This document shows positions 1,189 to 62,806 of a stretch of 64,000 nucleotides of DNA, piece by piece; positions within the stretch are counted from its first letter, which is position 1; every line of letters starts with the position of its first letter. Origin of the DNA: Brachypterus glaber (taxonomy: Eukaryota; Arthropoda; Insecta; Coleoptera; Kateretidae); assembly GCA_958510825.1 (NCBI GenBank), contig OY294047.1:5270001-5334000 (forward strand), read 5' to 3'. The notes beneath the pieces are model-generated. The model was not told the origin of the DNA. It saw only the letters and a program-made list of their open reading frames with translations, and made no database searches. A program made the position numbers and the translations under genes.

Positions 1189-1448
1189 CTAATTACTATT
1201 TCTTCTAATGTAAACAATTTTAGAAGAAAGTGCGTTTGTTGGCCTTCCCATCATATGCAAAAGATGATTATGGCTATGATGAACTTCTATTATATTCCCA
1301 TATGAGAATAAAGAGGCTTTACATTTGTGCTTTACGTGATCCTTACACCTCCAACGGGTTTTATGAGGTTCTTTTAGATGAACTATATATTCGTAATTTT
1401 CCAGAGATAGCTTAGGATGCTTTAACCCAGGAAGTATATAAACTGTGC
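1189..1448 (-). CDS. mod(mdg4): FLYWCH terminal exon A (mod(mdg4)-like)
   Basis: Alternative 3' coding exon for one FLYWCH zinc finger. The acceptor TTTTTAG ends at 1449; the exon opens with GC, completing a phase-1 codon (Gly if the donor ends in G), then runs 85 codons to its own stop. Counting the junction residue as 1, the finger has W33, C35, C43, H60 and H62, with KHPK at 10-13. The tail after the finger ends IVYIRRNSN. AATAAA on the minus strand lies about 25 bp past the stop. By analogy with Drosophila mod(mdg4), this tail would give one isoform of a BTB chromatin protein its own specificity. It is the most divergent of the left group (CKDHVKHKC in place of the usual aromatic Y/F pair) but intact. 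Confidence 0.82.
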
Positions 1449-1869
1449 CTAAAAATATATAAATTAGCATGAATTATTTTGTTTAGGCTCGAACTAGTAA
1501 CATGCTTTTAAAATGACTGAATTACAAAACAATGCAATTTTCCTTTAATTATATACAGCAACTTATACATTTTTTTGTTACAAACGTCGGTGAGAATCAA
1601 ACAACAAAAAACAAATGTGTGGTATTGAAAATGAGATTTCCTAAAAATGGAAACATTAGGAAAGGAGACCAGGTAAAATGGCCCGTTTATGGCATTTTGG
1701 ATGGAACGTAAGATCTATATATTTTTAAAAAAAGTAGTGGTAGGCTAACTAAACCGTGCCAAATTTACCCTCAAAATCAGAAGGGAACCATTTATAAAAT
1801 TTTGCTGAAAATTGGGTTATACAAAGCAATTTCATAACATTAAAAAAAAAACTTTCCATGAATCTCATC

Positions 1870-2291
1870 TTAAAATCGCCCTAGATCGCGGCTCCAGTCA
1901 TTCCGCCCTTGAGACGTCCCTGGCTGATTTAAATGCATCCCTGACCGATTTAGATACGTTGAATTTTTTTCTGGATCATTTAAAATTGTTGGAAAGTTTG
2001 TCAGAGAGGTCAGCCCTTCTGATACCTCTGGGTTTGGATTATTCCTTATAATGTTAACAGTTTGTCTAAAAAATTTATCAAATTTTTTATTCTTTAACAG
2101 CGGCGGGTGATTATGTGTATGGTTCACTTTTAGAGTTTTCCCATAAGTCATCAGTGTTGATTTGCATTTTGTTTTAAAATAACCATTGCATCTCCATCTT
2201 GTTTTGTCTTCTGACTTTAGATAAATTGTGTAATCATTTTCGTCCAGAACTATTTTTGGGTTTTTTGCTCCAGGGATAAAGTAAACGGTTC
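1870..2291 (-). CDS. mod(mdg4): FLYWCH terminal exon B, long tail
   Basis: Alternative 3' exon with a FLYWCH finger and the longest tail of the array. The acceptor ATTTTAG ends at 2292; the exon opens with GA in phase 1 and codes 139 residues to a stop at 1870. Finger residues are W33, C35, C43, H60 and H62, with AKNPKIVL at 9-16 and the loop MTYGKTLKV. After the finger comes VNIIRN, then about 50 further residues rich in Ser, Thr, Asn and Pro, without recognisable fold. Splicing rather than an ATG sets the start: an internal ATG at 2149-2151 exists but would remove the first half of the finger. The nearest relatives in the window are exons C and D. No close poly(A) hexamer was seen. Confidence 0.85.
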
Positions 2292-2396
2292 CTAAAATTA
2301 TATTGTTAGAGAAACAGTTTTTATTGTATTAAGTAATGTAATATAAAGATTGAAAAACAATTATAATAAAAAATTTAATAAAGGTTTTATTATACC

Positions 2397-2530
2397 TAGT
2401 AGTAGAGGGAACCACCGGCTAATACTGACTTTCGAATCAGTTTATAGGGAGTGTCCGCTTAACTTACCGCCTTAGCCAAATTTAAATTATTATTTAAATG
2501 AAAAAGGCAAATCGGCGCCAGTAAGAATCG
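2397..2530 (-). mobile_element. tRNA-derived SINE fragment
   Basis: Reverse-oriented copy of the SINE at 36888-37170 and 53726-53965. It shares the ends of the body (CTAGTAGTAGAGGGAACCAC, the GGAGTGTCCGCTT block) and the GGCGCCAGTAAGAATCGAAC block that contains box B. The tRNA-like head is partly missing. It sits about 100 bp upstream of exon B in the direction of transcription. Confidence 0.7.
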
Positions 2531-4086
2531 AACATATACTTAACAAGTTTGTTTGGACTTTAAGTACTTTATTTGTTCTTTAATTCTTAAACTTACCTAC
2601 GAGTAGCGCATTACGTGATATGTGTGATAATTCAAGAAATCATTTTTTTATGGAATCACTCTAAAAAATTAAAAATAAATGTCCCCCTGCGGCAATTATC
2701 TGACACTAACTGTGCTCGATATAGTACTTTCCATTACTGTCCACTTTTTGGTTAAGTAATGTCAACTTACCTAGTTGGTAGTGAGAAAAGTTTTTTTTGT
2801 ACTAATGCGAAAAGTAAAATAGTCAAAGTTTATTGGTCAGTTGATGGATACCAAAATTTAACATTAAAACTCAAACGTCAAGTCTTTTGTCAAAAATACA
2901 AAGGACATGGCACAATTTATAGGGAGTTTTGGCCCTCGGTGAAATTCGCTAAATTTTTTATATGTTTTAGTTTATACTTTTTTAAAAGGAATTAGGAACG
3001 TTTCAAGCACTTTGTATGTACAGTTTTTTTTCTATAAGGAAAATAAAAAAATATTTTTGCCCTACACTCCTCATAAAAATATTTTTCTAGTAGGCATTGT
3101 TTCGTTTGACAACTTGTCAGTGAAGGATATTCTGACGTATTTTTGAAGGTTTTTAGACTAAATTGTCAGTTTTATTGGGAAAAAGTAATGAAATACATAT
3201 TGAAATTGGACAGAATAATTAAATAAGATGAAGAAAAGTGCAACAGAAATACTTCTTAAGGACTAAATTAGTGAAATAAGTGAAATAAGTTATTTGCTAA
3301 CCTGGTAAAAAGTACTAAAACGTATATAAAATTGAACTAAAGAATGAAATAAGAAGAAAAGCAGAATATAAATACGTTTTAAGGGATTCGTTTGTAAAAT
3401 AATAAGCGATTTTAATGCCGAAAGTGTATCCCTTATTTTTTGTACGGCAAAAAAAAACAATTATTTCCAAAATTCTACATAGAAGAAATTGAATATGTGT
3501 TTTTGTAATATAATGTACTGGAACCCATGTTAAAACTCCAGAACTTAATAAAATAATAAAATAAGAAGTAAAACAGAACAGAAAAACTAAGTTGAAAGTG
3601 AAATACTGTGTTTCTACATAGAATAAATTATCCAATATAACTATCATACCGAGGGCTTCATAACAGGGCTGTATCAACCGTGTTAACATGTAGCAGATAT
3701 GCCCCTATGTTATGAAGCCCTCGATATGATTTAAAATATGAACACTAAAAAAAAGGATCAAGAATCAAGAAAATGCATCTTTAGATTATATTTTAAGCCA
3801 AATTCTCTTATTTTTGGACTAGCATTTCTTATGAACCTAATAACTGGCGCGGGTCTTTGAATGGAAATCCGCGCTCTTCATTTAAGATGTTAGCCATAAA
3901 ATAAGAGAATATGGTGTTGTACTTATCAAAAGACATAATATAATTATAATTTTTTAACAAGATATAAATTATAAAAATTATTAACAAAACTTAGGTGTTT
4001 ATCTTTTTAAAATATCAAATTACGCATTCCATATACTATTACACAGTAAATGGTATATAAATAGTACATTGATTTTCCCAAATAAT

Positions 4087-4179
4087 TTAAAAAAATCAAA
4101 AAACAAAAAAAAAATCAAAAAACAAAAAAAAAATCAAAAAACAAAAAAAAAATCAAAAAACAAAAAAAAAATTAAAAAA
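4087..4179. repeat. 20-bp A-rich tandem repeat
   Basis: About four and a half copies of a 20-base unit of the form AAAAAATCAAAAAACAAAAA. It borders the plus-strand arm of the inverted duplication and may mark a slippage or repair junction. Confidence 0.85.
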
Positions 4180-4210
4180 ATGTATTTATGAATGCCAGAA
4201 TTTACATTCC

Positions 4211-4842
4211 TGCCCCGAATGGGAGGAAATGAAAACAAACAACAGATAGTTTTAGCAAGAAGGGATAATAATAATTTGCCTAATATGCAAATACAAAACA
4301 ATGTAAGAATTTGCTTTAATTGCAATCAATCTATTATAGATGAAACTGCAGCAGTTGAGGCAGATCCTACTCGCCTCAGGTTAAATGCGAACTTGCAGCT
4401 ACTGCAACGTCACATATTTGTTCGAGGAATATCTGCATTTCTGGTCCTCGGATAATATAGGGCTTATTGATAAAACGTAGCCCATGTAATAATTCTTTAT
4501 TAAGGAAGCCTCTATGGTCCAAATGTAATGGACAACATCTTACATTTTCAGGAATGTAAATTCTAGCGTGAATAAATACATTGGCTCTGCATTCTAAGGA
4601 TAAGCTATGCACATTATTTTCAGCATTACAAACAAGGCATGCCCGACTTCCTCTCTGATTCACTACATTTAACCTGAGGCGAGTAGGATCTGCGTCAACT
4701 GCTGCAATTTCATCTATAATGGATTGATTGCAATTAAAGCAAATTCTTACATCGTTTTGTATTTGCATATTAGGCAAGTTATTATTATCCCTTCTTGCTA
4801 AAGCTATCTGCTGTTTGTTTTCATTTCCTCCCATTCGGGGCA
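4211..4842. repeat. Inverted duplication (177-bp arms)
   Basis: Plus-strand 4211-4387 is repeated in reverse at 4666-4842 with only scattered differences. The right arm is part of the minus-strand zinc-rich ORF; the left arm is a copy of the same codons on the other strand. The reversed copy cuts the ORF off just before its stop at 4376, so the reading frame ends in foreign-phase sequence. The result is a long hairpin with a spacer of about 280 bp. Confidence 0.8.
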
Positions 4843-4909
4843 TCTGCTGTTGACCACCTTGACGGTTGCATACAAAGCAATTTACTTGAAAAAAGGCTCT
4901 AAAAGCCAT
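4376..4909 (-). CDS. Zinc-rich N-terminal part of transposon protein
   Basis: An ORF of 177 codons with ATG start inside the 2.3-kb TIR element. Visible features: CFVC at residues 16-19, an Asn/Gln-rich stretch, a second pair ICFNCNQ, then CLVC, then CRANVF, IYIPENVRCCPLH and a short leucine-rich tail. Paired Cys/His of this spacing suggest two or more zinc-binding sites in a DNA-binding module. I recall similar Cys-pair modules in front of DDE transposases in insect genomes, but cannot verify this here. No DDE domain follows: the frame runs into the inverted duplication and ends with SSHLT. It is probably the surviving front end of a transposase-like gene, not a host gene. Confidence 0.5.
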   Translation of the reverse strand: MAFRAFFQVNCFVCNRQGGQQQMPRMGGNENKQQIALARRDNNNLPNMQIQNDVRICFNCNQSIIDEIAAVDADPTRLRLNVVNQRGSRACLVCNAENNVHSLSLECRANVFIHARIYIPENVRCCPLHLDHRGFLNKELLHGLRFINKPYIIRGPEMQIFLEQICDVAVAASSHLT

Positions 4910-5752
4910 GCTAAATTAATTTTATATTACTAATAATATATAAAAAAATTGACAGACATCAGTTTGACTTATACCAATCAAGCTTTTTTCTTAATCATTA
5001 AGCTAATTAAACTTATTTTTATGAGGAGTTTGGGGCAAAAATATTTTTTTATTTTCGTTATAGAAAAAAAACTGTACATACAAAGTGCTTGAAACGTTCC
5101 TAATTCCTTTTTAAAAAGCATAAACTAAAACATATAAAAAATTTAGCGAATTTCACCGAGGGCCAAAATTCCCTATAAATTGTGCCATGTCCTTTATTTA
5201 TTATCATATTACAATCAAATGAAAAATTATGTGATACACAGATGAAGATTATCTTTAATGATTTTAATAATTTTTTATGTAGGTAAATTATAAATTTGAA
5301 ACATTAATATATTAAAAGTTTCTTTGTAATATAAAATTTAATATAATTTTAATCAATAACACTGCTCTACAAAAAAAGATTTTTTTTTATTTTCCACGGA
5401 CCTTTTAGTTGCGTCTGGCTATATTTGATGCGCTGATTTCAGAACCACTTTTCGTTTTTCTCTATCAGCTCGTTTTATTCAGATATAGCTCACAGTATTT
5501 TTTTTGCTTATAGTTGTATTAAAAAAAAATAAGGTCTAATTAATTTGTTTTTGCCGTGGATCGATTCCCTATTAATGGGACTCTGCCAAAAAAAGCGGAT
5601 TTAAAATATCTTTATTCGTTTGTTTTTTATAGGCTTCTAAATTCAAAAAATGAGATTTTTCGTAGATACTTTTTCCGAAATAAGGGCATCAAATATAGGC
5701 AGATGCAACTAAAATGGTCTCGGCAAATTATTGAGTGTATACCAGTGTAATA

Positions 5753-5829
5753 CTGCCGTGCTAGGCTGAAAGTTCCTATCTACATAGGTTTAACATACCA
5801 AGGTAGGACCTTTCAGCTTAGCAAGGCAG
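5753..5829. mobile_element. 77-bp palindromic mini-element
   Basis: A near-perfect small palindrome: CTGCCGTGCTAGGCTGAAAG at one end and its complement form at the other. A second copy in another repeat at 18505-18582, absent from the matching site near 52388, shows that it moves as a unit. It has no coding capacity. Confidence 0.7.
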
Positions 5830-5858
5830 AATAGGTGCACTTTGATTTCAATATAATA

Positions 5859-7183
5859 CAGGGTCATCAGTAACTGCCATGCCAAAATTTAAGAGGTGAC
5901 TTTGCATCCAAAAATATGAAAAAAAGTTTCTATAAAGGTTAGTCCGGAAATGAGCCCTAAGAGAGCTACGGCCCTTCAAAGATGCCGTATTGAATGGGAA
6001 ACAAAAAAAAGCATCAACAAAATTTTAATGCTGCAGGGTGATTCTTCATTTAAAACTAAACAAAAAAAGTATTCTTCACCAAAACACCTAAATTTAATAT
6101 TAAAGGAGTAATAGTCTTTTAAAAAGTAACGTTTTTGGTGGCACAAAATGTTTCCCCTTAATTGCACTGTTTTTGAAAACAGTGTTACACTATATGATAT
6201 TTTTTATGTATTTTTACTCAAGAAATCTACATTTTTTACAAAAAATCCAAAAAAAGTACACAAAAAAAAGTTTGGGGCAAAAATGTGTTAAGCCTAATAC
6301 ATTTTTCCGTCTAAGGACGCCTCTGGACAAATTAAAAAATAAATTTACATAAACTTATTGCCCTTATTAATACTATTATACATACAAAAGCTCGTCGCTT
6401 TAGCTTAAAGGGTAATAGAGTTATTAATTAAAAAGCTTATTTTTATTACAATTTTAAAGGGATGTAGCTCCCTTAGGGCTCGTTTGCGGACCAACCTTTA
6501 TATGAACTTTTTTTGGTATTTTTCGTTGCAGAATCACCCCTTAAATTTTGACATGCCAGTTATTGATCATAGGGACACCAGATCTATGTCTTAAGTTAGC
6601 AAGGCGACAGACAACGGGAACCGTCAGAAAACATCTGAGGATCGGTTGCCATAGAGAGTTTCTTCAAGGGTTTTACTGCCCATCCTAAACTTAGAAATTA
6701 ATCAAATCGAGCCGTTTTGAAGTTAAATTTTTGCTAAATTGCATCGTCGAAAATGTCAATAGATAACCTAATTTTTTGACGTAAACTTATTATTTGTGTT
6801 TTAAAATAGTGTTTAATCGCAGCAAAACGGTGTTAATCATTAATAAACTTACGTTTTTAAAGAGTTACGCATAATAACGTGTAAGGAAGAAAATTCAATC
6901 GCTACAAAATATTTTTTTCATCTTATTTTAAACAGCTGAGATAATGGACCATTTTTTTTTAATACGAGTTATTTCTGGACAGCCAGGCTGGAATTTCTTC
7001 TTTATCTTGACAAATTAATAAGGTAAATACAATATTGCATGAGTTTATCTATATTCTGAACTAAAATTTTATCATATGATCGATTTTATCAGTATGTGTA
7101 GAACCAATAAAACTTAAAGTAAATGGAATGTTGTCTGTCGCCTTTTTAAGACCTAGATCTAGTGTCCCTAATTGATCGCCCTG
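5859..7183. mobile_element. TA-flanked foldback MITE, interrupted
   Basis: Ends are CAGGGTCATCAGTAACTG and, reversed, CAGGGCGATCAAT, with TA on both sides (5857-5858, 7184-7185). The two halves are inverted copies sharing the GAGCCCTAAG-GAGCTACG, CACCAAAACACC and TTTGGGGCAAAAATGTGTTA blocks. A hAT-like element (6570-7170) is inserted in its right TIR. Relatives: 12514-13235, 37830-38245 and 44555-45395. Confidence 0.75.
6570..7170. mobile_element. hAT-like MITE nested in older MITE
   Basis: Ends TAGGGACACCAGATCTATGT and its inverted counterpart, flanked by 8-bp duplications ATTGATCA (6562-6569) and ATTGATCG (7171-7178). An 8-bp duplication is typical of hAT elements. The interior is AT-rich and noncoding. 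Insertion into the right TIR of the 5859-7183 element gives the relative age. Confidence 0.8.
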
Positions 7184-7213
7184 TATATTGAAATCATACA
7201 TATTATGTACTTT

Positions 7214-7479
7214 TTATTTCGGAACTTCATCATAGATAATATTAACTCGTTCCTTAAACACTTTATCCACTATTTGATCCTTCATCAATGGCCGGTGGTT
7301 ATGTACATGATTGACCTTCACAGTTTTGCCATATGTCACCAGGGTTGATTTGCATTTCGTTTTAAAATAACTTGTACACCGCCATCTTGTTTTATCCTGT
7401 AATTTTTTATATATTACATAACAGTCGTCATCTAGAATAATTTTTGGGTTTTTCACTGCAGGAATGAAGTAAACTGTTC
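7214..7479 (-). CDS. mod(mdg4): FLYWCH terminal exon C
   Basis: Alternative 3' exon. The acceptor ATTTTTAG ends at 7480; the exon opens with GA in phase 1 and codes 87 residues. Finger: VKNPKIIL at 9-16, W33, C35, C43, H60, H62, loop VTYGKTVKV, HNHRPL after the last His. The tail ends VNIIYDEVPK. The stop codon TAA itself overlaps an AATAAA hexamer, so the 3' UTR may be very short. An ATG at residue 9-10 gives a shorter reading frame that lacks the first strand; the spliced start is preferred because every member of the array begins at the same place. Close relative of exon B. Confidence 0.86.
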
Positions 7480-8416
7480 CTAAAAATATTTAATTTGGTT
7501 AATTCTAACTACACGGTAACATAAAATTTGATTTTGCAGTATATCGTACAATTTTAGAAGCTTGGAAAAATAAAAAAAGAAAAATAACTTTGTTAGTTAT
7601 TTATTATTTGGTAATTTAATAAATTTGTCCCAGTGAAATAAAATAAATAACTAGATGAAACGTTGCAAGCACCCTGTCAAAACATCGGCACTATTGTACA
7701 CTAGAGCCATCTAGTTTGCAAATTTCAAACTAGGTGTTTTGTTTGATTTTAAAGTCTGTATCTTTAAAACATTATATTCTAGCAAAAAACTGTATATAAC
7801 ATTTTTTATAGGGCTTAAAAAGGGCTTTTATTTAAAATATATTTTTTTGAAATCGGGTTATAAATATGTGAGATATGCTAAAAAAACCTTTTACTGCTTT
7901 AAACGCCAATATCTCGAAAACAATGCGTTTTAGGAAAACGTTTATAACATTTTTTGACCAATTTAAGATTATCTTTTATATAAGTAAATTAACCAAATAC
8001 AATAATAATTGCCTTAATTATAAACAAAAAACGCTAAAAATAGGAGTTTTACCCTATTTTTACCCCCTTACCCCCAATCGTTTACCCCCAAAATCTAATC
8101 AGTTCTTCGGAATACGATAAGAAACAATATGCAAAAAACCGCAAGTCGATATCTCATGTAGAAATGGAGTTAGAGAGTTTACACCCAGACAGACAAACGG
8201 ACGCACTAAGTGCCGATGTAAATATGATGTCAAAACACAGTGATTTTCTTGAAGACTTTAAGTGCTACCACAGTTTTGTGACGTCACTTCCGTGCACAAT
8301 TTAAATGAGTTGGAAGGCATAAGGATACTTGCATAACTGTAGAGTATTTTTTATATAGATATGGCTTGTGCTCAATCGCTGCTGATAAAGCAGTGCTGAA
8401 CCTTATGTACAATACT
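7480..8416. other. Intronic AT-rich stretch, no gene seen
   Basis: Between exon C's acceptor and the SINE at 8417. Part of it (7730-8210) has long T- and A-rich phrases, AATATCTCGAAAAC and a CCCAGACAGACAAACGGACG word, typical of noncoding interspersed repeats. Open frames at 7739-8120 are low-complexity and have no domain. Confidence 0.4.
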
Positions 8417-8990
8417 GGGGGCGGAGGTGGCTCAGTCGTGAATGCCTCGATCTAGTATTCGTGAGGCCGGGGTTCAATCCGCGGTTGTGAAACAACTTTT
8501 TCACAGAAATAAAATACCGTCGTTTCTCCACCACGTTGGCTTGTGCTGCCGAAGATCTAAGCACACAGTACAGAAAAAGGTTTGCAGTGGATAATGCCGC
8601 ACTAGCACTCGGACCTGTGATACTAAACGGGCGCACCGAAAGGGAGCAGCAAGGTAGCTGTCAGGTCTGTTGGCCGAGCTCACTTTAGGGACTTTCAAGC
8701 AACCAGGATCTGTACTAAGGCTGCAAGCGAATATGATCCTTAAGCAGTTTGGCGCCGGTCCAAGTGCACTGGCAGCCAATAAACTTAAGGATCATAGCCG
8801 CTCACTTAGCCAAAAAAGCCGACAAAACGAGGTTCGGATTACTCTCTAAACTGTAGGTCCCGGGGTACAACAACAAAAATCCTCGTTAGAGTAGAAAAAC
8901 TAGTAACACAGGGGTAGGCAAAAAGGACCAATATGGTCTAGTTGCCAGGCTTGACCTCCCCACCATTACTACTACTACTACTACTATGTA
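8417..8990 (+). mobile_element. tRNA-derived SINE, second family
   Basis: GC-richer island of about 570 bp. The head has a box A-like TGGCTCAGTCG near 8429 and a box B-like GGTTCAATCC near 8471, then a unique body, ending in a (CTA)n tail around 8964-8985. ATGTAC occurs on both sides (8405-8410 and 8985-8990), a possible remnant of a target duplication. Unlike a real tRNA gene, the head does not close an acceptor stem. Open frames on the minus strand here are by-products. Confidence 0.65.
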
Positions 8991-9022
8991 CTGGTAATGG
9001 TAAAATAAAAAAAAACGTGCCC

Positions 9023-9282
9023 TTAAGAATTGCCCGTATTTCTTTCGATGAATACTTTTTTAGCGACCAGATTATTCAGTGAACCTCCATTGGGCGGATG
9101 GTTGTGTTTTCTGTTAATTTGTACGGTTTTTCCTGTCGTAATCAAAGTCACCTTACATTTTGTTTTATAATACCAAGTACATCGCCATCTTGTTTTGTTA
9201 GTTTCTTTTGATATTATGGTAAATTCATTCTGCTCCACTATTATTTTTGGATTTTTCGAACCGTATCCAATATAAATTAAAC
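9023..9282 (-). CDS. mod(mdg4): FLYWCH terminal exon D
   Basis: Alternative 3' exon. The acceptor ATTTTAG ends at 9283; the exon opens with GT in phase 1 and codes 85 residues. Finger: SKNPKIIV at 9-16, W33, C35, C43, H60 and H62 with loop ITTGKTVQI and HNHPPNGG. The tail has VFIERN before the stop. It begins G-L-I-Y rather than G-T-V-Y, as in exon F. The SINE (CTA)n tail lies about 35 bp beyond the stop, so a SINE may supply part of the 3' UTR in antisense. No AATAAA was seen close by. Confidence 0.86.
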
Positions 9283-9305
9283 CTAAAATACAACATTTTT
9301 AATAA

Positions 9306-17189: not shown

Positions 17190-17506
17190 TTAATTTTGCT
17201 GATTTTCTAGTTTTCCCATAAATCCGGTAACAGGTTTTCTAGTTCTGACAACTTTCCAAGGATTCCGCGTAATATAAACTTGCTGCGGAAACCTATTCTC
17301 ATAGACCGGATACGTAGGCAAATGGTTATGTTCCTGGTTAACCTTAACAGTTTTTCCGTAAGTTATAAGGGTAACATTGCATTTGCTCTTAAAATATTGG
17401 GTACATCTCCATCTTGTTCTATTTCCCTGTTTTGTGTTTATGGTAAAATCGTTGTCGTCCAATAGGATTTTTGGATTTTTGGTTCCAGCAGCTATATATA
17501 TTATAC
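17190..17506 (-). CDS. mod(mdg4): FLYWCH terminal exon E
   Basis: Alternative 3' exon. The acceptor TTTTTTTAG ends at 17507; the exon opens with GT in phase 1 and codes 104 residues. Finger: TKNPKILL at 9-16, W33, C35, C43, H60, H62, loop ITYGKTVKV and HNHLPT. The tail carries QQVYITRNPW and then about 25 more residues rich in Lys, Thr and Gly, ending ENQQN. Three decayed relatives lie just 3' of it and the PIF-like MITE ends only 20 bp past its stop, so its 3' UTR must run into the MITE. No close AATAAA was seen. The frame is intact despite the degraded surroundings, which suggests it is kept by selection. Confidence 0.85.
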
Positions 17507-19829: not shown

Positions 19830-20080
19830 CTACTCTTTGATAATATGAACAATTTGTGAAAGTAAATCATCACAATTAATATTAGGGGGTGCATGATTAT
19901 GGGATTCGCTTCCAACCTTAGCTATTCTCTCAAAGGTTTGCAATCTTGCTTTGCATTTCGTCCTGTAGTACGATGAACACTTCCAGTAGGTTTTTCCAGA
20001 TTTTCTTGCGTTTATTTCATATTCAAACCTATTTAAAATTATTTTTGGATTTTTTCGACCAGCATTAAAATAAATTAACC
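19830..20080 (-). CDS. mod(mdg4): FLYWCH terminal exon F
   Basis: Alternative 3' exon without any usable ATG, found by its motif. The acceptor ATTTTAG ends at 20081; the exon opens with GG in phase 1 and codes 82 residues to TAG at 19830. Finger: RKNPKIIL at 9-16, an aromatic-rich YYWKC-type core with W33, C35 and C43, then SHNH with H61 and H63 (one residue longer than the others in the loop). The tail ends IVHIIKE. It resembles exon D at its start (G-L-I-Y) but has TYWKC instead of TRWRC, closer to the general FLYWCH consensus. No AATAAA close to the stop. An overlapping minus-strand frame at 19700-19915 is a shadow. Confidence 0.84.
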
Positions 20081-29959: not shown

Positions 29960-30246
29960 TCATAAGTAATCTTGTAAAGAATAAGTTGTAGCCCTTTTTT
30001 TGTTAATAGTGACATTTTGAAATTCCAATTTTGACAGTTCGTAACCAGCTCCATTTGGTGGATGGTTATGTTCTCCTCTGGTGGTTACGTTATCTCCGCT
30101 GGTCCAAATCCACGATCTGCATTTGGTTTTTTTGTAAGAACAACATTTCCAAATACTTTTGTCTGAATATTTTTTGTTCAAAGTGTACGTGTTGGAATCA
30201 AATATTATTTTTGGATGTTTTATTGACACATCAAAATGTATTTTTC
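29960..30246 (-). CDS. mod(mdg4): FLYWCH terminal exon G
   Basis: Alternative 3' exon. The acceptor TTTTAG ends at 30247; the exon opens with GA in phase 1 and codes 94 residues. Start GKIHFDVS, KHPKIIF at 10-16, W33, C35 (with a second Cys at 36), C43, H60 and H62 in GEHNHPPNG. The tail has FQNVTINKKRA and ends LQDYL. It opens the second subclass of the array (GKI-F-D-x-S, KHP in place of KNP, CRSxVWTSG after the second Cys), shared with exons H, I and J. It lacks the common R/Y before W (SIWKC). Frame intact. Confidence 0.86.
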
Positions 30247-34603: not shown

Positions 34604-34926
34604 TTAGTTTATAAAATTATTCAAGAAATTATTAATATTATTTTGGGCATCTTGCATTTTGTTTTCTCTAGTAATATAAAAATCTTTGCACATTAATTTT
34701 GCACAGTCCAAGCGTTTTTTAGTTGGTTCGTGGTTATGTTCGTTTAAAATTGTGGCCATGTTTCCACTTGTCCAGACTCGTGACCTGCATTTTGCTTTGT
34801 AATATCCTGAACATATCCAGAAGGTTTTATCTGGTAGTTTTCTGTTTATTGAATATGAATAATACTTTTCGTTATCATTGATTATTATATTTGGATGTTT
34901 TTTGGATACATCAAAGTAAATTTTAC
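34604..34926 (-). CDS. mod(mdg4): FLYWCH terminal exon H
   Basis: Alternative 3' exon found by motif, as it has no early ATG. The acceptor ATTTTAG ends at 34927; the exon opens with GT in phase 1 and codes 106 residues to TAA. Start GKIYFDVSKKHPNIII; a four-residue insertion (KYYSYS) before the core shifts the finger to W37, C39, C47, H64 and H66. RSRVWTSGNMATILNEHNH is shared with exon I. The tail has KDFYITREN and then an Asn-rich end (NNINNFLNN). Exons H and I are close paralogs about 6.4 kb apart, so this is a fairly recent duplication whose tails diverged most. Confidence 0.84.
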
Positions 34927-41005: not shown

Positions 41006-41286
41006 TTAAATTCTTGAATCTAGTTTGCGGACAATACTGAAATCTCTGCATATTAATTGTGCACAATCCCAGCGTTTTTTAGTTGGCTCGTGGTTATGTT
41101 CGTTTAAAATTGTTGCCATGTTTCCACTTGTCCAGACTCTGGATCGGCATTTTGTTTTATGATAACTTGAACATATCCAAAAAGTTTTTTCTGGTAGCTT
41201 TCTATTTATTGAGTACGAATAATAGTTTTCTTTATCATTGATAATTATATTTGGATGTTTCTTGGATACATCGAAGTAAATTTTAC
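41006..41286 (-). CDS. mod(mdg4): FLYWCH terminal exon I
   Basis: Alternative 3' exon. The acceptor ATTTTAG ends at 41287; the exon opens with GT in phase 1 and codes 92 residues. Same start as exon H (GKIYFDVSKKHPNIII) with the four-residue insertion (NYYSYS), finger W37, C39, C47, H64, H66, and the same RSRVWTSGNMATILNEHNH stretch. The tail CRDFSIVRKLDSRI is shorter than in exon H. Upstream ATG codons that extend the frame to 41338 fall in the intron and are ignored. Two AATAAA hexamers on the minus strand lie within 25 bp past the stop. Confidence 0.87.
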
Positions 41287-44185: not shown

Positions 44186-44442
44186 CTAATAATTTTTAGT
44201 AATTTTAAACACTTTAAAAGGTAAATTTGTAAAATCTCCGTTTGTAAATTTTGGATGGTGGTTATGTTCATCTGTGATTGTCGCCATGTTTCCCTGTGTC
44301 CATACTCTCGATTTACATTTTGTCTTATGGTATGTTGAACAAATCCAAAACGTTTTGTTGGGCAATTTTCTGTTTATGGTGTAAGTATTGTTGTTCAGTA
44401 TAATTTTAGGATGTTTTTTTGATGCGTCAAAGTAAATTTTAC
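44186..44442 (-). CDS. mod(mdg4): FLYWCH terminal exon J
   Basis: Alternative 3' exon found by motif. The acceptor ATTTTTAG ends at 44443; the exon opens with GT in phase 1 and codes 84 residues to TAG. Start GKIYFDASKKHPKIIL, finger W33, C35, C43, H60 and H62, SRVWTQGNMATITDEHNHHP. The tail has LPFKVFKITKNY. It lacks the four-residue insertion of exons H and I but otherwise belongs with them. The hairpin MITE lies about 100 bp past the stop. No AATAAA was seen immediately after the stop. Confidence 0.84.
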
Positions 44443-47676: not shown

Positions 47677-47945
47677 TTAACTTTTTTCTGGAATGTTTTT
47701 CTTATTAATTAATACAATTTGATAAGGCAGTTTTGATAAACCAATGTTTGGTGCATTTGCTGGATGGTTGTGTCTGTTTGTTATTGTCACAGTGTTATCA
47801 GCATGACATACTCTAGATCTACACCTTTTTTTAGTGTACGAAGCACAGGTCCAAAATGATTTATCTGGTCGTTTTCTGTTGATCCGATAGGCGTTGTTCT
47901 CCACTATTATTTTTGGCCCTCGTTGTTCAAAAAAATACAACTTTC
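47677..47945 (-). CDS. mod(mdg4): FLYWCH terminal exon K
   Basis: Alternative 3' exon. The acceptor TTGTAG ends at 47946; the exon opens with GA in phase 1 and codes 88 residues. Third subclass: start GKLYFFEQRGPKIIV (one residue shorter), finger W32, C34, C42, H59 and H61, CRSRVCHADNTVTITNRHNHPAN. The tail has KLPYQIVLINKKNIPEKS. TTG near the start could be read as an initiator but the acceptor and phase make a spliced start more likely. AATAAA (plus TTTATT) lies about 20 bp past the stop. The oldest copy of the tandem trio. Confidence 0.87.
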
Positions 47946-48214: not shown

Positions 48215-48504
48215 TTATGAGTATGATACTTTATTTAACTTTTTTTTCGGGATGTCTTTCTTATTAATTAATACAATTTGGTAAGGCAGTTTTGATAAAC
48301 CAATGTTTGGTGCATTCGGTGAATGGTTGTGTCTGTTTGTTATTGTCACAGTGTCATCAGCATGACATACTCTAGATCTACACCTTGTTTTAGTGTACGA
48401 AGCACAGTTCCAAAATGATTTATCTGGTCGTTTTCTGTTAATCCGATAGGCGTTGTTCTCCAATAATATTTTTGATCCTCGTTGTTCAAAAAAATACAAC
48501 TTTC
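48215..48504 (-). CDS. mod(mdg4): FLYWCH terminal exon L
   Basis: Second copy of the tandem trio. The acceptor TTGTAG ends at 48505; GA in phase 1; 95 residues. Finger W32, C34, C42, H59 and H61; differs from K mainly in RGSKILLE, SFWNC and HNHSPN. The tail reads INKKDIPKKKLNKV and ends SYS: a frame difference after DIP makes it longer than K. The encoded protein is identical to exon M, so the two tails would be functionally the same. The AATAAA (plus TTTATT) overlaps the end of the coding sequence. Confidence 0.87.
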
Positions 48505-48773: not shown

Positions 48774-49063
48774 TTATGAGTATGATACTTTATTTAACTT
48801 TTTTTTTGGGATGTCTTTCTTATTAATTAATACAATTTGGTAAGGCAGTTTTGATAAACCAATGTTTGGTGCATTCGGTGAATGGTTGTGTCTGTTTGTT
48901 ATTGTCACAGTGTCATCAGCATGACATACTCTAGATCTACACCTTGTTTTAGTGTACGAAGCACAGTTCCAAAATGATTTATCTGGTCGTTTTCTGTTAA
49001 TCCGATAGGCGTTGTTCTCCAATAATATTTTTGATCCTCGTTGTTCAAAAAAATACAACTTTC
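48774..49063 (-). CDS. mod(mdg4): FLYWCH terminal exon M
   Basis: Third copy of the trio and nearest the expected promoter side. The acceptor TTGTAG ends at 49064; GA in phase 1; 95 residues identical to exon L, with only silent or near-silent differences at DNA level (for instance a C/T in the T-run near 48802). An upstream in-frame ATG at 49098-49100 lies in the intron and is ignored. Identical neighbours suggest a very recent duplication, gene conversion, or an assembly duplicate. Confidence 0.86.
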
Positions 49064-49756: not shown

Positions 49757-49764
49757 CTTACATA

Positions 49765-54085: not shown

Positions 54086-54170
54086 AACCGTGTTAATCAC
54101 TTTTTACTTTTTGACGTTTCGTCTCTTACTACTTAAAATTTAAAATGGTGTATTTTAGTTTTAAACTTAC

Positions 54171-54333: not shown

Positions 54334-54365
54334 CTAAAAATATTTTAATAATTTTTAATAATAAA

Positions 54366-55763: not shown

Positions 55764-55802
55764 TATAATAATAAAGTTTAAGACTCTTTTAACTTGTGTG
55801 TA

Positions 55803-56657
55803 GGGGAACCTGTTGTACCTAGACCCTATTTTTACATTTCGTGATGCAAAAAATAGGCAAATGGAACGAACTTTTTAAAATATAGCCTATTATTTTTTAT
55901 CGTGTTTTAGGCTTGATAGTTATATTTTTAAATTTTCCTAAATTAATTTTTTATATTTTTTAATCATTTATTTAGGATCGAGGTACAACAGGGGCTTTGT
56001 ACCTAGGACCGGCAGGGGTTGTACCTTGGACACAGATATTTTAGTTAAAATATATGTACAACTTGATTATTTAACATTAGCTCTACTGCGCTTCTTAGTT
56101 TCTTTGTCAGGGTGAGCCCTCTTTTTACCATGCTTACTCCGTGGCAGCTTTAGACAGCTTAAAAAATATTTTAGTTGTACCTCGAGTTACAACTAAAATA
56201 TTTTTGTAGTTATCTAAAGATGCCACAGAGTATCGATCGAACCCATCAAAAGTACAACGTGTTGTACGTCAAACCCGTTCAAGGTACATTTTACACATTA
56301 AGTCCAAGATACAACTATAGGTAGCGATACCAAAAACAATTCGTATATTTTTTTAGGTTAGAGTTAAACTTTCCATACATTTTATACTTTAATAACGTAT
56401 TTCAACAAAAAATAAATATACTGGATGTAAAGAAAACTAAAAGGTCTCAGCGAAAATACTTACTTTTCAATGTAAAATATTAGTTACCGGAATAACACAC
56501 ACACGCTTGCCGACATTGTTTTCGAATAAACTGAAAATAACAATCTATCGGATGATTAATAAACTACCACAGTCGATTTGGAGAAATTATTCCAGGAAAT
56601 TGGAAATTTAAGTGTAGGTTCTAGGTACAAATTGATCCAAGGTACAACAGTTTCCCC
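55803..56657. mobile_element. TA MITE with iterated GGTACAAC word
   Basis: In intron 2 of DUF4806 unit 2. Ends GGGGAACCTGTTGTACCTAG and GGTACAACAGTTTCCCC, TA outside. GGTACAAC or GTTGTACC-like words recur ten or more times. Same layout as 32659-33561 and 35071-35896. Noncoding. Confidence 0.8.
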
Positions 56658-56764
56658 TACATATTTTGATAACACTAAAAAACAAGACACGATTTGTCTT
56701 AGGGGAATTGCCCTGTATAAAAAATAAATTCCAAAAATTTTAGTTAAATATTTTAAATACTTAC

Positions 56765-56973
56765 CAAAGCTCCAAAAGCTTCAGGTGAAGTTTGTAAAAA
56801 GTTATTCAGGTTTTCTAAATCTTGCAAATTCTCCAATTTTTCAATGTCCGTAGTAGGAATTTCATCAAACCCATTATTCGGTGTATTCAACATTAAAAAC
56901 TTCAAATACTCAGAATTCTTTTTCATTGATCTATTTAATTTCAGAAGCAATTCTAAAAATTTTAAATTATTTC
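56765..56973 (-). CDS. DUF4806 unit 2, exon 2
   Basis: Internal exon: acceptor AATTGCAG ends at 56974; first two bases GA complete the phase-1 codon from exon 1 (A|GA, Arg); 69 codons; donor TTG|GTAAGT at 56765/56764, phase 0. It reads NNLKFLELLLKLNRSMKKN (coiled-coil-like), then DEIPTTDIEKLENLQDLENL and NFLQTSPEAF: the IPTT-x-x-x-x-L-E pattern seen just before the GG strand in DUF4806 proteins, matching FPMNNTEDIL of unit 1. A TTTTAG further in is a weaker alternative acceptor that would remove seven residues. Confidence 0.78.
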
Positions 56974-57007
56974 CTGCAATTATTTTTTTGATGTACAATG
57001 TATACTA

Positions 57008-58000
57008 GGGTGGAGCGATTTTTTTTCTCAGTCAAATAGCACTATGTACCAAAAGTTGCCTAAATTATAGCATATAACCTGTAATTTTTTCAGGATTTTT
57101 TGGAAGTCGTCTTGATTTAAGAAATTTTAGAAAATTGTTGAATAGACCAATAATGCTTTTTATGCTTTAATTATAATTATGCAGCAATGCTCTTATAAGT
57201 ATAATATTTCAAGATTCAGTTTTAGCAACCTCAAAAACACTTATATACAAATTTTCAAGAAAATATCGAAGATATTTCAAAATAAACCATAGAAAAAATG
57301 TTATCTCTCCAAAATATAAATTTATTGTCTATTAAACAAACATTACAGCGACAATTGTTTCGACTTTTTTAACATAAAGTCATTTTCAAGCTACAAATAA
57401 TGAAAAATTAGGTTGAAAATGGTACAATTCCTTTTAGAAAAACTTACTTTTTAAATTTATAAACAAAATACTTGAGTACACATTATTATTTTGTTTATAA
57501 ATTTAAAAAGTAAGTTTTTCTAAAAGGAATTGTACCATTTTCAACCTAATTTTTCATTATTTGTAGCTTGAAAATGACTTTATGTTAAAAAAGTCGAAAC
57601 AATTGTCGCTGTAATGTTTGTTTAATAGACAATAAATTTATATTTTGGAGAGATAACATTTTTTCTATGGTTTATTTAAATCAACTCCAATCAATATGAG
57701 TAAGGATCAAGAATTTCTTAATTATATTTCAAAATATTTACCCCCTCATCCCCGAGGGGTTGGAGTTAGATTTTTTTTATTGTCAGATTCGATGTCAGCA
57801 ACCTCAAAAACCCCTATAATTATTTATTAATTTTCAAATTTTTGTAAAAAAATATTTCTTAAATTCTGAGGCCCCCGCGGGGAATCAAAACGACTTCCAG
57901 AAAAATTGAAAAAAAAAATACTGGTTATGTTCTATAATACAGGCAACTTTTGGTACATAGTGCTATATGATTGGGCGAAAAAAAAATTTTCGCTCCACCC
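57008..58000. mobile_element. TA foldback element with perfect inner palindrome
   Basis: Ends GGGTGGAGCGATTTTTTT and TCGCTCCACCC with TA outside (57006-57007, 58001-58002). Outer arms mirror AGCACTATGTACCAAAAGTTGCCT and CCAGAAAAAT-GACTTCC blocks. The centre is the 191-bp palindrome at 57280-57677. Lies in intron 1 of DUF4806 unit 2, only about 35 bp upstream of exon 2's acceptor in the direction of transcription. Confidence 0.82.
57280..57677. repeat. 191-bp perfect inverted repeat, 16-bp spacer
   Basis: Left arm 57280-57470, spacer 57471-57486 (CTTGAGTACACATTAT), right arm 57487-57677. I find no mismatch by eye over 191 bp. Outside the arms the match stops at once. RNA copies in either direction would fold into a 191-bp duplex. 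Confidence 0.92.
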
Positions 58001-58164
58001 TAATGTAACTAATATAAGGGCCTATCCCACAAAAAAAATTCCAGTGATATTTTATTCTTAATATTAATTTTATTTTAATAGTGTTTGACTTTTTAGATCG
58101 TTTTATGTAGATTTCAACAAAAAAAACTTGAAATAAGGCCCTAAACAATACCCTTAATTATCAA

Positions 58165-58450
58165 AAGGGCCTTACCCACAAATTTCTTATAAGGTTGTTT
58201 TTGCATAAAATCTTCTCTTTGCTAGTCTTAAATAGGTTCATAAGCCTTTTTTAATTAAAAATAGTTAACGGCAAATATTTGGGTGGGGCAAAAAAAGCAA
58301 ATTATTAAAAAAGCCTTACCTACCCGTTTATTATAAGATTGTTTTTTTATAAAATCTTGTCTTTTCTAGTTTTAAAGAGGTTCATATACTTTTTTTAAAT
58401 AAGAATAGTTAAAGGTAATTATTTGGTTGGGGCAAAAAAACATTATTAAA
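58165..58450. repeat. Two tandem units of about 143 bp
   Basis: GCCTTACCCACAAATTTCTTATAAGGTTGTTTTTGCATAAAATCTTCTCTTTGCTAG recurs diverged at 58311 as GCCTTACCTACCCGTTTATTATAAGATTG. GGGGCAAAAAAA marks the end of each unit. A third, weaker start is GGGCCTATCCCAC at 58018. Noncoding. Confidence 0.7.
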
Positions 58451-58619
58451 ATTTGCACCCCAAACCTTATTTTCCAATGTATTTTTTGCCAGTTCTAGTA
58501 ACATATTAGGAATTTTTATTAACGAACGATAAAGTACGTTAAGTAGTACCCATTTCAAGCAAAACTCGTATTTCGCAAAAAATGAGGGTTAGGCCCATAT
58601 GTTAGTTGCACTCTTCTTA

Positions 58620-59328
58620 CAGTGCGGTCCAAAAGTCACCACACCCCCCCCCCCCCTTTGAACGAGATATCTACTTCAAATTTAGAACTCTTAAATAAGA
58701 CAACTTAAACTATCTTTTAGCATATATTTGATATTTTTAGCTCTTAAAATATCGGCAGGGGGCATGGGGGGACATTTTTTTTAAATGGAAAGGGGGGTCG
58801 TGTGATACATCATTTTAAAGCTTATAAAATTCTCTATTTAAACTAATATTTTTAAATTTTTAAAAAATGTTTTTTAAGGTTTAGATTTTTCAATTTTTTG
58901 TGCTAAAACATTCGATTTTTTAAGTTTTTTTTATAAATTTTTATTTATGTCAACTAAAATTAGTTTAAAAGTACAATTAACATTTTTTTATGATGAAATT
59001 AGGCATTTTTAAAAAATTATTTGTTTTTTTTAGAGGAATTTTGACATTAATACCCATTTTCACCCCCATTTTAAACCCATTTTTTTTTAATTTAAAAATA
59101 TAGAGTTAAATGGAGAATTTTATAAGCTTTAAAATGATGTATTGCACGACACCCCTTTCATTTAAAAAAATGTGCCCCCATGCCCCCCTGCCCACATTTT
59201 AAGAGCTGAAAGTATTAAATATATGCTTTAGGATAGTTTAAGTTGTCTTATTTAAAAGTTCCAAATTTGAAGTCGATATCTCAACTGGTTCAAAAGTTAA
59301 GAGGGGGGGTGACTTTTGGACCGCTGTG
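58620..59328. mobile_element. TA foldback, sister of 26651-27363
   Basis: Ends CAGTGCGGTCCAAAAGTCACC and GGTGACTTTTGGACCGCTGTG, TA outside. Body near-identical in words to 26651-27363. The right end lies 11 bp from the splice donor of DUF4806 unit 2 exon 1 (59339), so it fills the start of that intron. Confidence 0.88.
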
Positions 59329-59339
59329 TATATACTTAC

Positions 59340-59480
59340 TATAATTCCTTTCACAAGGATTTTCAGATTTAGGTTGTTTCAGAACTTCATCATCTTCAGA
59401 TTCCAAATCTAGATCGAAAACGGGAAAAGGTGCTACAGTTTTTTCTTTGTACTGTTTCCTCTTTTTTCCTTTATACATAC
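59340..59480 (-). CDS. DUF4806 unit 2, exon 1 (first visible)
   Basis: Exon of 46 codons plus partial codons at both ends. The acceptor CTTTTTAG ends at 59481; the exon opens GT-ATG, so it can be read either from an upstream phase-1 exon (Gly if the donor ends in G) or from its own ATG. It reads MYKGKKRKQYKEKT (basic), then FDLDLESEDDEV (acidic) and PKSENPCERNY; donor TATA|GTAAGTATA at 59340/59339, phase 1, matching exon 2. The acceptor and phase are the same as those of the 14 FLYWCH exons, which suggests a shared upstream exon. Spliced with exons 2-4 it gives about 210 residues. Confidence 0.7.
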
Positions 59481-59814
59481 CTAAAAAGAGAATTAATTCA
59501 ATATTTAATTTTCACATAAAAAATGTAAAGTATAATTTAATAATAATCATAAATCGTTACTTAAAATTAATTTATTATTAAAATTATTCTACAAAATGTG
59601 GACTTAAATAAATCTGTTTTTTATTACGTTTAAAATGCGTTTTGTAGAAAAAAAATCCCTGAAGAATTTTTTTTATTGTACATAGTGCAACGATATGTTT
59701 AACGGATTTTAGGCTTGTTCAAATTTCGTAAAATAACAGTTCATAATAATCGGTAACATGTTTAGAGAACGATTTTCGTGTAATTTTTTTTTAGAATTGG
59801 TTCAGAACTTTTTT

Positions 59815-60755
59815 TAAGGCACACCGTGAATTTTCAGTTGGAAACACCAGCCTGGAAATGATTTTTAGCTCAACTTTCATATAACCCAAGTTTTTTTTTT
59901 CATAATTTAATAATTTAGAGCTTTGGTATCTTTTTAAGACCAAATTTAAAAAAATCTATTGATGCGTTTTTGAGAAAAACGATTTTCATATGTGTTAACA
60001 AAAAAAATATGATTTTAAAAAATTATTTTAGATATTCGGATTTTACGTTTAAAGTGAGAATAAAGTTTTCATAGAAGTTTGAGCTAAATTGCTTTTTAAG
60101 GGAGCTAGCGTACTTTTAAATGGCATTTTTAGAATATTCACATAATCACTTCATATCTCAGTAACGGTTTAACTTATTAACATAAAATTTTAACTGAACT
60201 ATAGAACCAATAAATGTAAATCTAACGTTTTATTAAAATTAAGTTTTTGACCAGGGGTGTCTCATAATTTATATGTAAAACTGTCCCTGCCCCTGGTTAA
60301 ACATTTAATTTTTTTATGTCATAAAATTATAATGTTTATTGGTTGCATACTACAGTAAAAAAAGTCATAAAATTATAATGTTTATTGGTTGCATACTACA
60401 GTAAAAAAAGTCAATAAGTTAAACCGTTCCTAAGTTACGAAGTAAATAATATTCTAAAAATGCCCCTTAAACGTGTTCTAGCTCCCCTAAGAAGCCATTT
60501 AACACAAACGTTCATAGAAACCTTTTGTCTCACTTTTTGACGTAAAATCTGAATATCAAAAAAAAAATAAATATGTCATATTCTTTTTGTTAAAACAAAT
60601 AAAAATCGTTTTTCTCAAAAACGCATCGATAGATTTTTTTTTTAATTTGGTCTAAAAAATATGTCAAAGCTCTAAATAATTAAATTATGAAAAAAAACTT
60701 GGGTTATATGAAAGTTGAGCTAAAAATTGTTTCTAGACCGGTGTGAGGTATTATA
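59815..60755. mobile_element. Foldback with 46-bp duplication
   Basis: AGGCACACCGTG-x-CAGCCTGGAAATGATTTTTAGCTCAACTTTCATATAACCCAAG is mirrored by TTGGGTTATATGAAAGTTGAGCTAAAAATTGTTTCTAGACCGGTGTGAGG. Inner mirrored words: TTTTTGAGAAAAACGATTTT and AAGGGAGCTAGCGTACTTTTAAATGGCATTTTTAGAATATTC. 60318-60409 is an exact 46-bp tandem duplicate. Noncoding. Confidence 0.75.
60318..60409. repeat. Exact 46-bp tandem duplication
   Basis: GTCATAAAATTATAATGTTTATTGG... occurs twice back to back without mismatch (starts 60318 and 60364). A recent local event inside the foldback. Confidence 0.9.
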
Positions 60756-61140
60756 TAAATATTATTAGCGTCAAATTGTAAAATAATAAAGAAGAAATAA
60801 TGCCAATAAAAATTCCCTGTCAAACAGTGTTTTGGATTGGCAGAATTCAAAACTGTTTGGAACTTTTTTACCAACGCGGTTCTGGGAAAACCTAAAACAG
60901 GTCTATATCGAAATCCGAACAAACCTTTTTTATACAGAATGACACAGAATCGATTTATAGAAAATGCGAGAGGTAAAACACTACAAAACTTCGGAGATTT
61001 TTGTGTGACTTTGGAGATTTTCGACACAAAAAATCTAAGACTTTTAACTTTTTCCAGATTTCTGGGAATTCTAAATAATCTTAGAAATTTTGTCAAGAAT
61101 ACAATTTATATATATGTAGTATTTTGTACTGATAAGTGAA
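60756..61140. other. Open frames with no recognised product
   Basis: Frames are open on both strands (60704-61096 minus, 60837-61139 plus). Residues on either strand show no domain, and mirrored phrases (CAAAACTTCGGAGATTTTTG, TTTGGAGATTTTCGACACAAAAAATC) suggest another interspersed repeat. Not taken as a gene. Confidence 0.35.
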
Positions 61141-61510
61141 AATACCTTACCCCTACGATGTATTTTTACCCCACTTTTCTCTAATCTAAAATCGTGCTTA
61201 TTGTTTGCTTTTTAAATTATAAAATATAATTTATTTGTGGATTAATACGTTATAATTAAGAGGTATTTGTATTAAATATAAATTATATTCTCTCCCTAAA
61301 TATCACTTCGTGATAGTAGGTTAGGTACCGGTGCTTTTTTTTTTCAAATTTTACTCATATTAATCCCAATTTTTGGAAAATGCAACTCCTGCTAACGCAG
61401 TCGTTGCATTTTCGTCATTAAGATTAATACTAGTAAAATGTATGTAAAAAACCACCGATACCTAACCTAATATCACTTATGATATTACCCCTGAAAATTT
61501 CAGAGATTCT
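61141..61510. repeat. Dispersed repeat flanking exon N, copy 1
   Basis: Direct match of 62185-62530: ACCTTACCCCTACGATG, TCTCTAATCTAAAATCGT, TTATTTGTGGATTAATACGTTATAATTAAGAG and TTCTCTCCCTAAATATCA. Its second half is a small hairpin, GTAGGTTAGGTACCGGTG mirrored by CACCGATACCTAACCTA, around the AATGCAACTCCTGCTAACGCAGTCGTTGCATT palindrome. Confidence 0.78.
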
Positions 61511-61631
61511 CGAGATATCTGCTGACACTGTTGATTTTTGAAAGAATCCCAAAAATGTATATACGGATAATCAGAAAATTACACTAAATCCATCCATTCA
61601 AATACTGTGTGGATTCCTCTATAAATATTAT

Positions 61632-61894
61632 TTATTTTGAAATTAGAAAATTAACCATTTGAGATGGTAAACTTATGAAATCTTTTGTATTTGTATCTGC
61701 ATAGTGATTATGAAGTTGTTTCGAGAAAACAGCATTATTTCCAGATGTGGTCAATTTGGCTGGACATTTTGTTTTGAAATAGGATGTGCACAACCAACAA
61801 GTTTTATTTGGATGTTTGGTGTTAACGAAATAGGTAAATCCATTTGCTATTATTTGGGGTGAGTTTTTCTTACTCACTTTAAAATATATTTTAC
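61632..61894 (-). CDS. mod(mdg4): FLYWCH terminal exon N
   Basis: Alternative 3' exon. The acceptor TTTTAG ends at 61895; the exon opens with GT in phase 1 and codes 86 residues. Start GKIYFKVSKKNSPQII (one residue longer than most), finger W34, C36, C44, H62 and H64, PAKLTTSGNNAVFSKQLHNH. The tail has LPSQMVNFLISK. The ATG at 61917-61919 lies upstream of the acceptor, in the intron. A plus-strand TTTATT gives AATAAA right at the stop. Flanked on both sides by copies of one dispersed repeat (61141-61510, 62185-62530). Confidence 0.85.
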
Positions 61895-62184
61895 CTAAAA
61901 ATAAATTATTAGTAATCATGGTATAAAAAAATGCAGAAGGTTATACCTATAGTTAAAAAAATCTCTCATCACATATTGTGTATTGATCTTGACAACAAGC
62001 GACACTTTTTGTTTATGTTTACGGGCGAAAAGATGGACTTTGTAGCCCTAGGGCCAAAAAGTTTTTTTGGCCAGCTAACTAAAACTTGTTATTATAAAGA
62101 TTTTTTTTTAATAAAATACTTTACCTTTACTGTAATATTTTTAAAGAAATAAGACCTTTTGTTCACTTATGGTCTTGAAATATA

Positions 62185-62530
62185 CCTTACCCCTACGATG
62201 GTTTTTTTTTACTCCTTTCTCTAATCTAAAATCGTAATATTGTTTGCTTTTTAATTTATAAAATATAATTTATTTGTGGATTAATACGTTATAATTAAGA
62301 GATGTGTGTATTAAATATAAATTGTATTCTCTCCCTAAATATCAATTCGTGATACTACGTTAGGTAACGGTGTTTTTTTTTAAATTTTACTCATATTAAT
62401 CTCAATTTTTGGAAAATGCAACTCCTGCTAAAGCAGTTGTTGCATTTTCGTCATTGGGATTAATATTCGTATACATTATGTAAAAAACCACCGAGACCTA
62501 ACCTAGTATCACTTATGATATTACCCCTGA
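62185..62530. repeat. Dispersed repeat flanking exon N, copy 2
   Basis: Same orientation and order of words as copy 1. Ends 22 bp past the stop of exon O, so it would lie in exon O's 3' UTR. The segment containing exon N may therefore have been duplicated or moved between the two copies. Confidence 0.78.
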
Positions 62531-62552
62531 ATATATTTACATAGAAATAAAC

Positions 62553-62806
62553 TTAGGATCTAGTAACATATAAAAAATTATATGGTAATTTTTCCATTTC
62601 TTCATATGTCATTGGCGGGTCATGATTATGAAGTTTGGTAAATTTTGCAATACTATATTTGGTCATAGCCCGAGCTGGACATTTGGTTCTAGTATACCAA
62701 GTACAACACCAAAAAGTTCTTTCTGCTCTTTTCTTATTCGAGCAATATGTATAACAGTTTGATATTAGCTGCTGAGCTTTCTTTCCAAATGCATAGTAAA
62801 TTTTCT
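62553..62806 (-). CDS. mod(mdg4): FLYWCH terminal exon O, divergent
   Basis: Alternative 3' exon found by motif; no ATG near the start. The acceptor TGTTTTAG ends at 62807; unlike all others the exon opens with AG, so the junction codon would be Glu if the donor ends in G. 83 residues to TAA. Start KIYYAFGKKAQQLI without the usual KNP/KHP, extra Cys at 18 and 22, finger W33, C34-C35, C43, H60 and H62, PARAMTKYS and KLHNHDPP. The tail has LPYNFLYVTRS. A second AG two bases on (TTTTAGAG|AAAATT) would shift the frame and is rejected. It is the exon nearest the presumed common 5' part. Confidence 0.8.

Follow-up and report, generated by a model that had tools for sequence, protein, structure and literature searches.

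The stretch of DNA analysed here, referred to as the window, comprises 64,000 nucleotides of the beetle Brachypterus glaber (C10:5270001-5334000, in which C10 denotes contig OY294047.1 of the 648-Mb genome) and carries part of a long array of exons encoding FLYWCH fingers, which are predicted to be the alternative 3′ ends of a gene resembling mod(mdg4). In a motif scan of the window, 15 FLYWCH fingers were found on the minus strand and none on the plus strand, spanning positions 1189-62806, and in 15 of 15 cases the finger lies in an exon with an AG acceptor, a phase-1 entry, one finger and its own in-frame stop. An earlier reading made from the letters of the window alone (the sequence-only reading) had described 15 minus-strand exons with exactly these parts, and every one of them was borne out. 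It had also given nine exons the strict register W33, C35, C43, H60 and H62; this register was found to be exact in eight of the 15, the ninth (acceptor 20080) departing from it only at H61/H63, and the shift of at most four residues stated for the others held in the alignment. As to the four exons (labelled F, H, J and O) said to have no usable ATG, the labels could not be matched to individual exons, and the count obtained here, which covers the stretch from acceptor to finger, went beyond the claim, with no ATG in any of the 15.

Exons of the window and of the whole array

Numbered from the left end of the window, and all on the minus strand, the FLYWCH terminal exons begin with exon 1 (1189..1448), whose acceptor lies just above 1448 and whose stop is TAG, and exon 2 (1870..2291), which has a long C-terminal tail (140 aa). 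As in all 15, acceptor, phase and stop were read for exon 4 (9023..9282), exon 5 (17190..17506), exon 7 (29960..30246), exon 9 (41006..41286) and exon 10 (44186..44442), and exon 6 (19830..20080) was used as the query of one whole-genome protein search. Exon 8 (34604..34926) showed a ratio of nonsynonymous to synonymous divergence (dN/dS) of 0.15 against exon 9. Exon 11 (47677..47945) is a member of a recent tandem triplet, in which exon 12 (48215..48504) is a tandem copy lying 559 b from each neighbour and exon 13 (48774..49063) encodes a protein identical to that of exon 12. The last two are exon 14 (61632..61894) and exon 15 (62553..62806), the latter with E as its junction residue. Scanning of exons 3 (7214..7479), 11 and 14 against Pfam returned FLYWCH scores of 41-49 bits, above the cut-off of 23.6. 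An AlphaFold2 model of exon 3 reached a predicted local distance difference test score (pLDDT) of 87.6, and its best match in the PDB was the FLYWCH domain 2rpr, with a template modelling (TM) score of 0.61, a probability of 1.00 and an E value of 0.0055. The predicted fold runs from residue 2 to the end of the last strand at residue 83 of 88, so that one exon would correspond approximately to one domain.

Exons of the same type were found at 156 places, all of them on the minus strand of C10 and within 636 kb (C10:5,022,635-5,658,410), with a median spacing of about 3 kb. Their distribution, with 56 to the left of the window, 15 inside it and 85 to the right, agrees with the expectation of the sequence-only reading that further exons would lie left of position 1. 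None of the 156 was inverted; other open frames of at least 130 aa occur on both strands (17 minus, 13 plus). Whole-genome searches with five single-exon proteins (E ≤ 1e-3) gave 143, 144, 99, 108 and 119 matches, every one of which fell on the minus strand of C10:5.02-5.66 Mb. The final set merged these protein matches with a Pfam search and with local reading; the second entry of an exon present twice (5271873 and 5272029) was removed from a scripted total of 154, leaving 153, and the last additions were compared by eye. It used ten of the 99 matches of the third query; the fourth query added the exons at 5075807, 5080690 and 5095260, the last of which may be incomplete, as its match spans only residues 1-52 of an 83-residue query, and the fifth query added none. 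As no search scored more than 150 candidates, 156 is a lower bound.

Local reading of the array yielded 77 open frames at E < 1e-5, from which seven were excluded (five truncated tandem copies, a decayed one at 5510861 and the second half of an exon broken by a stop), leaving 70 fully read exons; four weaker matches were also kept out of this set. The five truncated copies, each of the 3′ half of a finger exon, stand in tandem at C10:5344832-5346093 on the minus strand, beside the intact exon 5346374; four of them follow a 240-bp period and are mutually near-identical, and none has the usual junction. For the last 53 exons about 130 bases each were read, so the absence of inner stops in them rests on the searches and not on reading. 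In 69 of 69 full exons the W, C, C, H and H residues are invariant, and many positions between them vary freely. The stretch from acceptor to finger contains no ATG in 52 of these 69, and ordinary gene callers could therefore miss such exons or start them wrongly.

The common 5′ part and the predicted splice junction

A search of the genome for BTB domains returned 77 matches, a single one of which lies near the array, at C10:5754111-5754395 on the same strand (94.6 bits). Reading of the DNA around this match placed three putative common exons on the minus strand, namely a BTB exon (C10:5754099-5754455, supported by both the reading and the BTB match), a linker exon (C10:5750526-5750820) and an acidic exon (C10:5749438-5749569), the latter two from the DNA reading. 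The acidic exon ends in CAAG followed by the donor gtaggt, leaving a single G, i.e., phase 1, and the common part has a coding length of 261 codons plus this G. The three exons lie 91 kb upstream of the nearest end-exon and 415-420 kb to the right of the window. Thus, the common exons predicted beyond position 64000, as well as the shared donor ending in one G, were both located. The anticipated BTB domain was likewise encountered to the right on the minus strand, but the proposed distance of 50 kb was too short: with the BTB exon 420 kb away, such a search would have missed it. A motif scan for BTB in the 50 kb at the right end of the array (5654001-5704000) found none.

An in-frame, phase-1 AG precedes the finger in 156 of 156 end-exons. 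This was verified by script for the 70 fully read exons (two after a shift of one codon), for a further 33 by script (27) or by re-reading by eye (six), and for the remaining 53 by script with the AG allowed from -27 to +9 of its expected place. The residue completed at the junction is G in 87 exons, D in 34, E in 23, A in eight and V in four, as summed by hand. The acceptor has the exact form TTTTAG in 59/70 of the fully read exons, in 23/27 of those read by script and in 49/53 of the last ones, whereas among 147 non-FLYWCH open frames of at least 83 aa, taken as a control, only 11 contained TTTTAG in phase at any place within the first 45 codons. The junction pattern is beyond chance (59/70 against 11/147).

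From this arrangement, the end-exons (15 in the window, 156 in total) are very probably spliced one at a time to the BTB common part, likely in cis. Each mature mRNA would then carry one end-exon and encode a BTB protein that bears one finger out of about 155; the BTB part would multimerise and the finger would select DNA or a partner, as in the fly Mod(mdg4).

Relatives in other beetles and growth of the array

The joined 349-aa protein gave 3009 protein matches, of which the best 120 are all from named beetles, with up to 74% identity over 98% of the length. The names of the matched isoforms include "tramtrack beta isoform X43" and "modifier of mdg4-like"; for what seems to be one beetle gene, the database uses many times 'tramtrack, beta isoform' and otherwise 'modifier of mdg4-like' or 'uncharacterized'. 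Both Pfam domains are present in 119 of these 120 relatives, the other one (P0102) having BTB only, and one Dendroctonus model (P0017) has two fingers in a row. In 120 of 120 the junction reads EGQ followed by G, D, E, A or V (GEGQ in 113), which indicates that the junction predicted here is the one used in the beetle gene models. The genes of Anoplophora, Leptinotarsa, Diabrotica, Rhynchophorus and Tribolium have the same BTB, linker, EGQ junction and FLYWCH ends. In a tree of the common part, the Brachypterus sequence falls among the beetles compared, with no closer placement.

Individual end-exons also have recognisable counterparts. Among the 120 listed isoforms, a reciprocal best match was found for 20 of the 69 full exons, at 41-75% identity. 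Exon 2 had such partners among the isoforms of six or more further beetle groups (identity up to 68%), exon 5 in Anoplophora isoform X28 (68%), exon 6 in Anoplophora isoform X46 (61%) and exon 10 among isoforms of two other beetle groups (54% and 44%). End-exons common to several beetle families may offer a handle on the function of single fingers. Among the matches listed, the highest isoform label in other beetles is X49 (Leptinotarsa), against 156 end-exons here; such labels may be capped or incomplete, and other beetles could hold equally many end-exons that are under-annotated.

Within the array, identity between exons drops with their distance (Spearman -0.36, with none of 500 permutations as strong), and 47 of 69 exons have their closest paralogue directly beside them. 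Among the 30 closest pairs, dN/dS was 0.06-0.63 in 21, one pair had no protein change and dS could not be computed in eight. Tandem duplication would have enlarged the array, with selection maintaining the fingers.

Because of the common exons, the matches to beetle isoforms and the EGQ junction in all 120 relatives, the 156 predicted end-exons together with their in-frame BTB front are recognised as an unusually expanded mod(mdg4)-like locus of the beetle type. The identity proposed by the sequence-only reading is thus supported, the BTB common part, the phase-1 donor and the FLYWCH ends all being present and the beetle 'modifier of mdg4-like' proteins joining both parts.

A second, smaller BTB-FLYWCH gene was observed on the plus strand at C10:42735952-42739106, accompanied by FLYWCH exons at about 42748.6 and 42754.7 kb. 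It likewise has a BTB exon, a linker exon ending in a single G and phase-1 FLYWCH exons, but at least two of these against 156 in the array locus, and its beetle relatives are small genes with mixed names. A dispersed FLYWCH family was also noticed, scattered on C1, C2, C4, C15 and C17, often as a 91-aa open frame and perhaps belonging to a transposon; the scattered Pfam FLYWCH copies were not matched by the genome searches with array-exon proteins.

Alternative explanations, mode of joining and known systems

The presence of two BTB-FLYWCH loci in the genome raises the question of whether the array locus is a beetle paralogue and the smaller gene at C10:42.74 Mb the orthologue of the fly mod(mdg4). 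BTB identity to the fly does not separate them, at 60.2% for the array locus and 59.3% for the second gene (a tie, in a provisional comparison), and relatives of the second gene bear the name 'modifier of mdg4' in Dendroctonus and Tenebrio. However, tens of end-exons occur only at the array locus, whose relatives in several beetles are named 'modifier of mdg4-like' with high isoform numbers, whereas among the beetle relatives listed for the second gene the closest have low isoform numbers and mostly other names, which makes this exchange of identities unlikely. That the exons are not alternative ends at all, but relics of a transposon family or of an array of individual FLYWCH genes, is highly improbable: phase-1 entry is shared by 156 of 156, the 15 window exons all lack an ATG from acceptor to finger, five array proteins had no match elsewhere in the genome (E ≤ 1e-3, up to 150 candidates scored per search), and the beetle isoforms join the same parts. 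Such an origin would be in line with the dispersal of a different FLYWCH family, since 63 of 150 scored Pfam matches did not lie in the array (two of the 63 fell within the second BTB-FLYWCH locus), with the near-identical protein appearance of the two scattered copies that were read on different contigs, and with the truncated copies inside the array.

How the front and the ends are brought together is the least certain step of the mod(mdg4)-like reading. Joining in cis, within a single pre-mRNA with a length of up to 732 kb, is considered moderately more plausible than joining in trans. The one-strand layout suggests as much, with no opposite-strand exon among 156 here, against the 9 of 31 fly mod(mdg4) isoforms reported to use such exons (PMC4667647), and ordinary cis-splicing has been reported for mod(mdg4) of another beetle, Tribolium (PMC4667647). 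The layout is suggestive only, because tandem copies are not independent and because Anopheles has cases in which donor and acceptor share one strand and are nevertheless presumed to be trans-spliced (PMC4667647). It is possible, though doubtful, that at this same locus the end-exons are transcribed from promoters of their own and trans-spliced to the common part as in Drosophila, in which all mod(mdg4) mRNAs are reported to arise in this manner (PMC12692577). Trans-splicing has likewise been described for Lepidoptera and mosquitoes, and in Aedes donor and acceptor are 950 kb to 1.28 Mb apart (PMC4667647); in Brachypterus the corresponding distances are as long as 727 kb, and the array encloses other genes.

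Some observations weigh against a cis-spliced set of intact ends, and to these belongs the fly precedent just given, which makes cis joining less secure. Transcription over as much as 732 kb would need to run through other genes, including a ubiquitin carboxyl-terminal hydrolase on the same strand (C10:5491988-5493073, minus); a gene for a CCDC113/CCDC96-type coiled-coil protein (C10:5437913-5439193) and a 1054-aa open frame (C10:5471349-5474510) lie inside the array on the plus strand. The signal AATAAA is not enriched after the stops (45/67 have it within 400 b, compared with 64% of random places), its count on the sense strand is not reduced (778 against 748), and ATTAAA is somewhat rarer there (477 against 565), so that neither separate 3′ ends nor suppressed internal sites can be clearly read from the sequence; with AATAAA flat and ATTAAA only slightly rarer, the poly(A) signals were dropped as evidence on cis or trans joining. 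The exon with acceptor 5515875, which belongs to the 70 fully read exons, has its finger interrupted by a stop, and several truncated exon copies, excluded from the 156, are present in the array. Finally, the dN/dS ratios of the closest pairs are only a rough guide, as some exons occur in more than one pair and many dS values are above 1.

The mod(mdg4)-like reading has clear precedents. Drosophila mod(mdg4) likewise joins a BTB common part to many FLYWCH 3′ exons, one per mRNA, but with over 30 isoforms that are reported to be exclusively trans-spliced from both strands (PMC12692577, PMC4667647), compared with 156 exons on one strand here. The mod(mdg4) locus of Danaus plexippus is likewise large, at 550 kb with many FLYWCH acceptors, and differs in having 24 acceptor genes, with no fewer than 40 isoforms, of which 33 come from the strand opposite the donor (PMC4667647). 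Across the six species of this published survey, no more than 41 mod(mdg4) isoforms are listed (PMC4667647). The fly isoforms differ in their C-terminal domain, and isoform 67.2 is reported to act in the Su(Hw) insulator with CP190 (PMC5666082); by analogy, the beetle proteins may have an insulator-type role like that of the fly Mod(mdg4) 67.2. This kind of locus is already known and the new point is its size, 156 end-exons; no array of that scale was found in the open-licence papers searched.

Dscam1 is a single gene with about a hundred alternative exons, which are internal cassettes arranged in clusters and combined with each other. The locus described here is unlike it in having single terminal exons instead of combined internal cassettes. 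Whether one gene gives rise by cis-splicing, over up to 730 kb, to about 155 zinc-finger proteins, and so to the largest mutually exclusive set of terminal exons known, can be put forward tentatively, a little short of probable. If true, it would provide a natural test of how the polymerase and the splicing machinery pass more than a hundred potential ends, and, if transcribed as predicted, the array would supply one chromatin protein with about 155 zinc-finger tails, in the manner of a natural library. With the end-exons kept strictly in order on one strand, the choice between cis and trans joining in beetles becomes directly testable.

Other open frames were observed in and near the array. 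A cysteine-rich frame of 179 aa lies between array exons on the minus strand of the window (4379-4915), with no Pfam match at E ≤ 0.01. Upstream of the array, at C10:5686434-5694069 on the minus strand, three open frames, similar to one another and each about 330 aa long, stand in a row and, judged by eye, resemble the recombinase of a mobile element.

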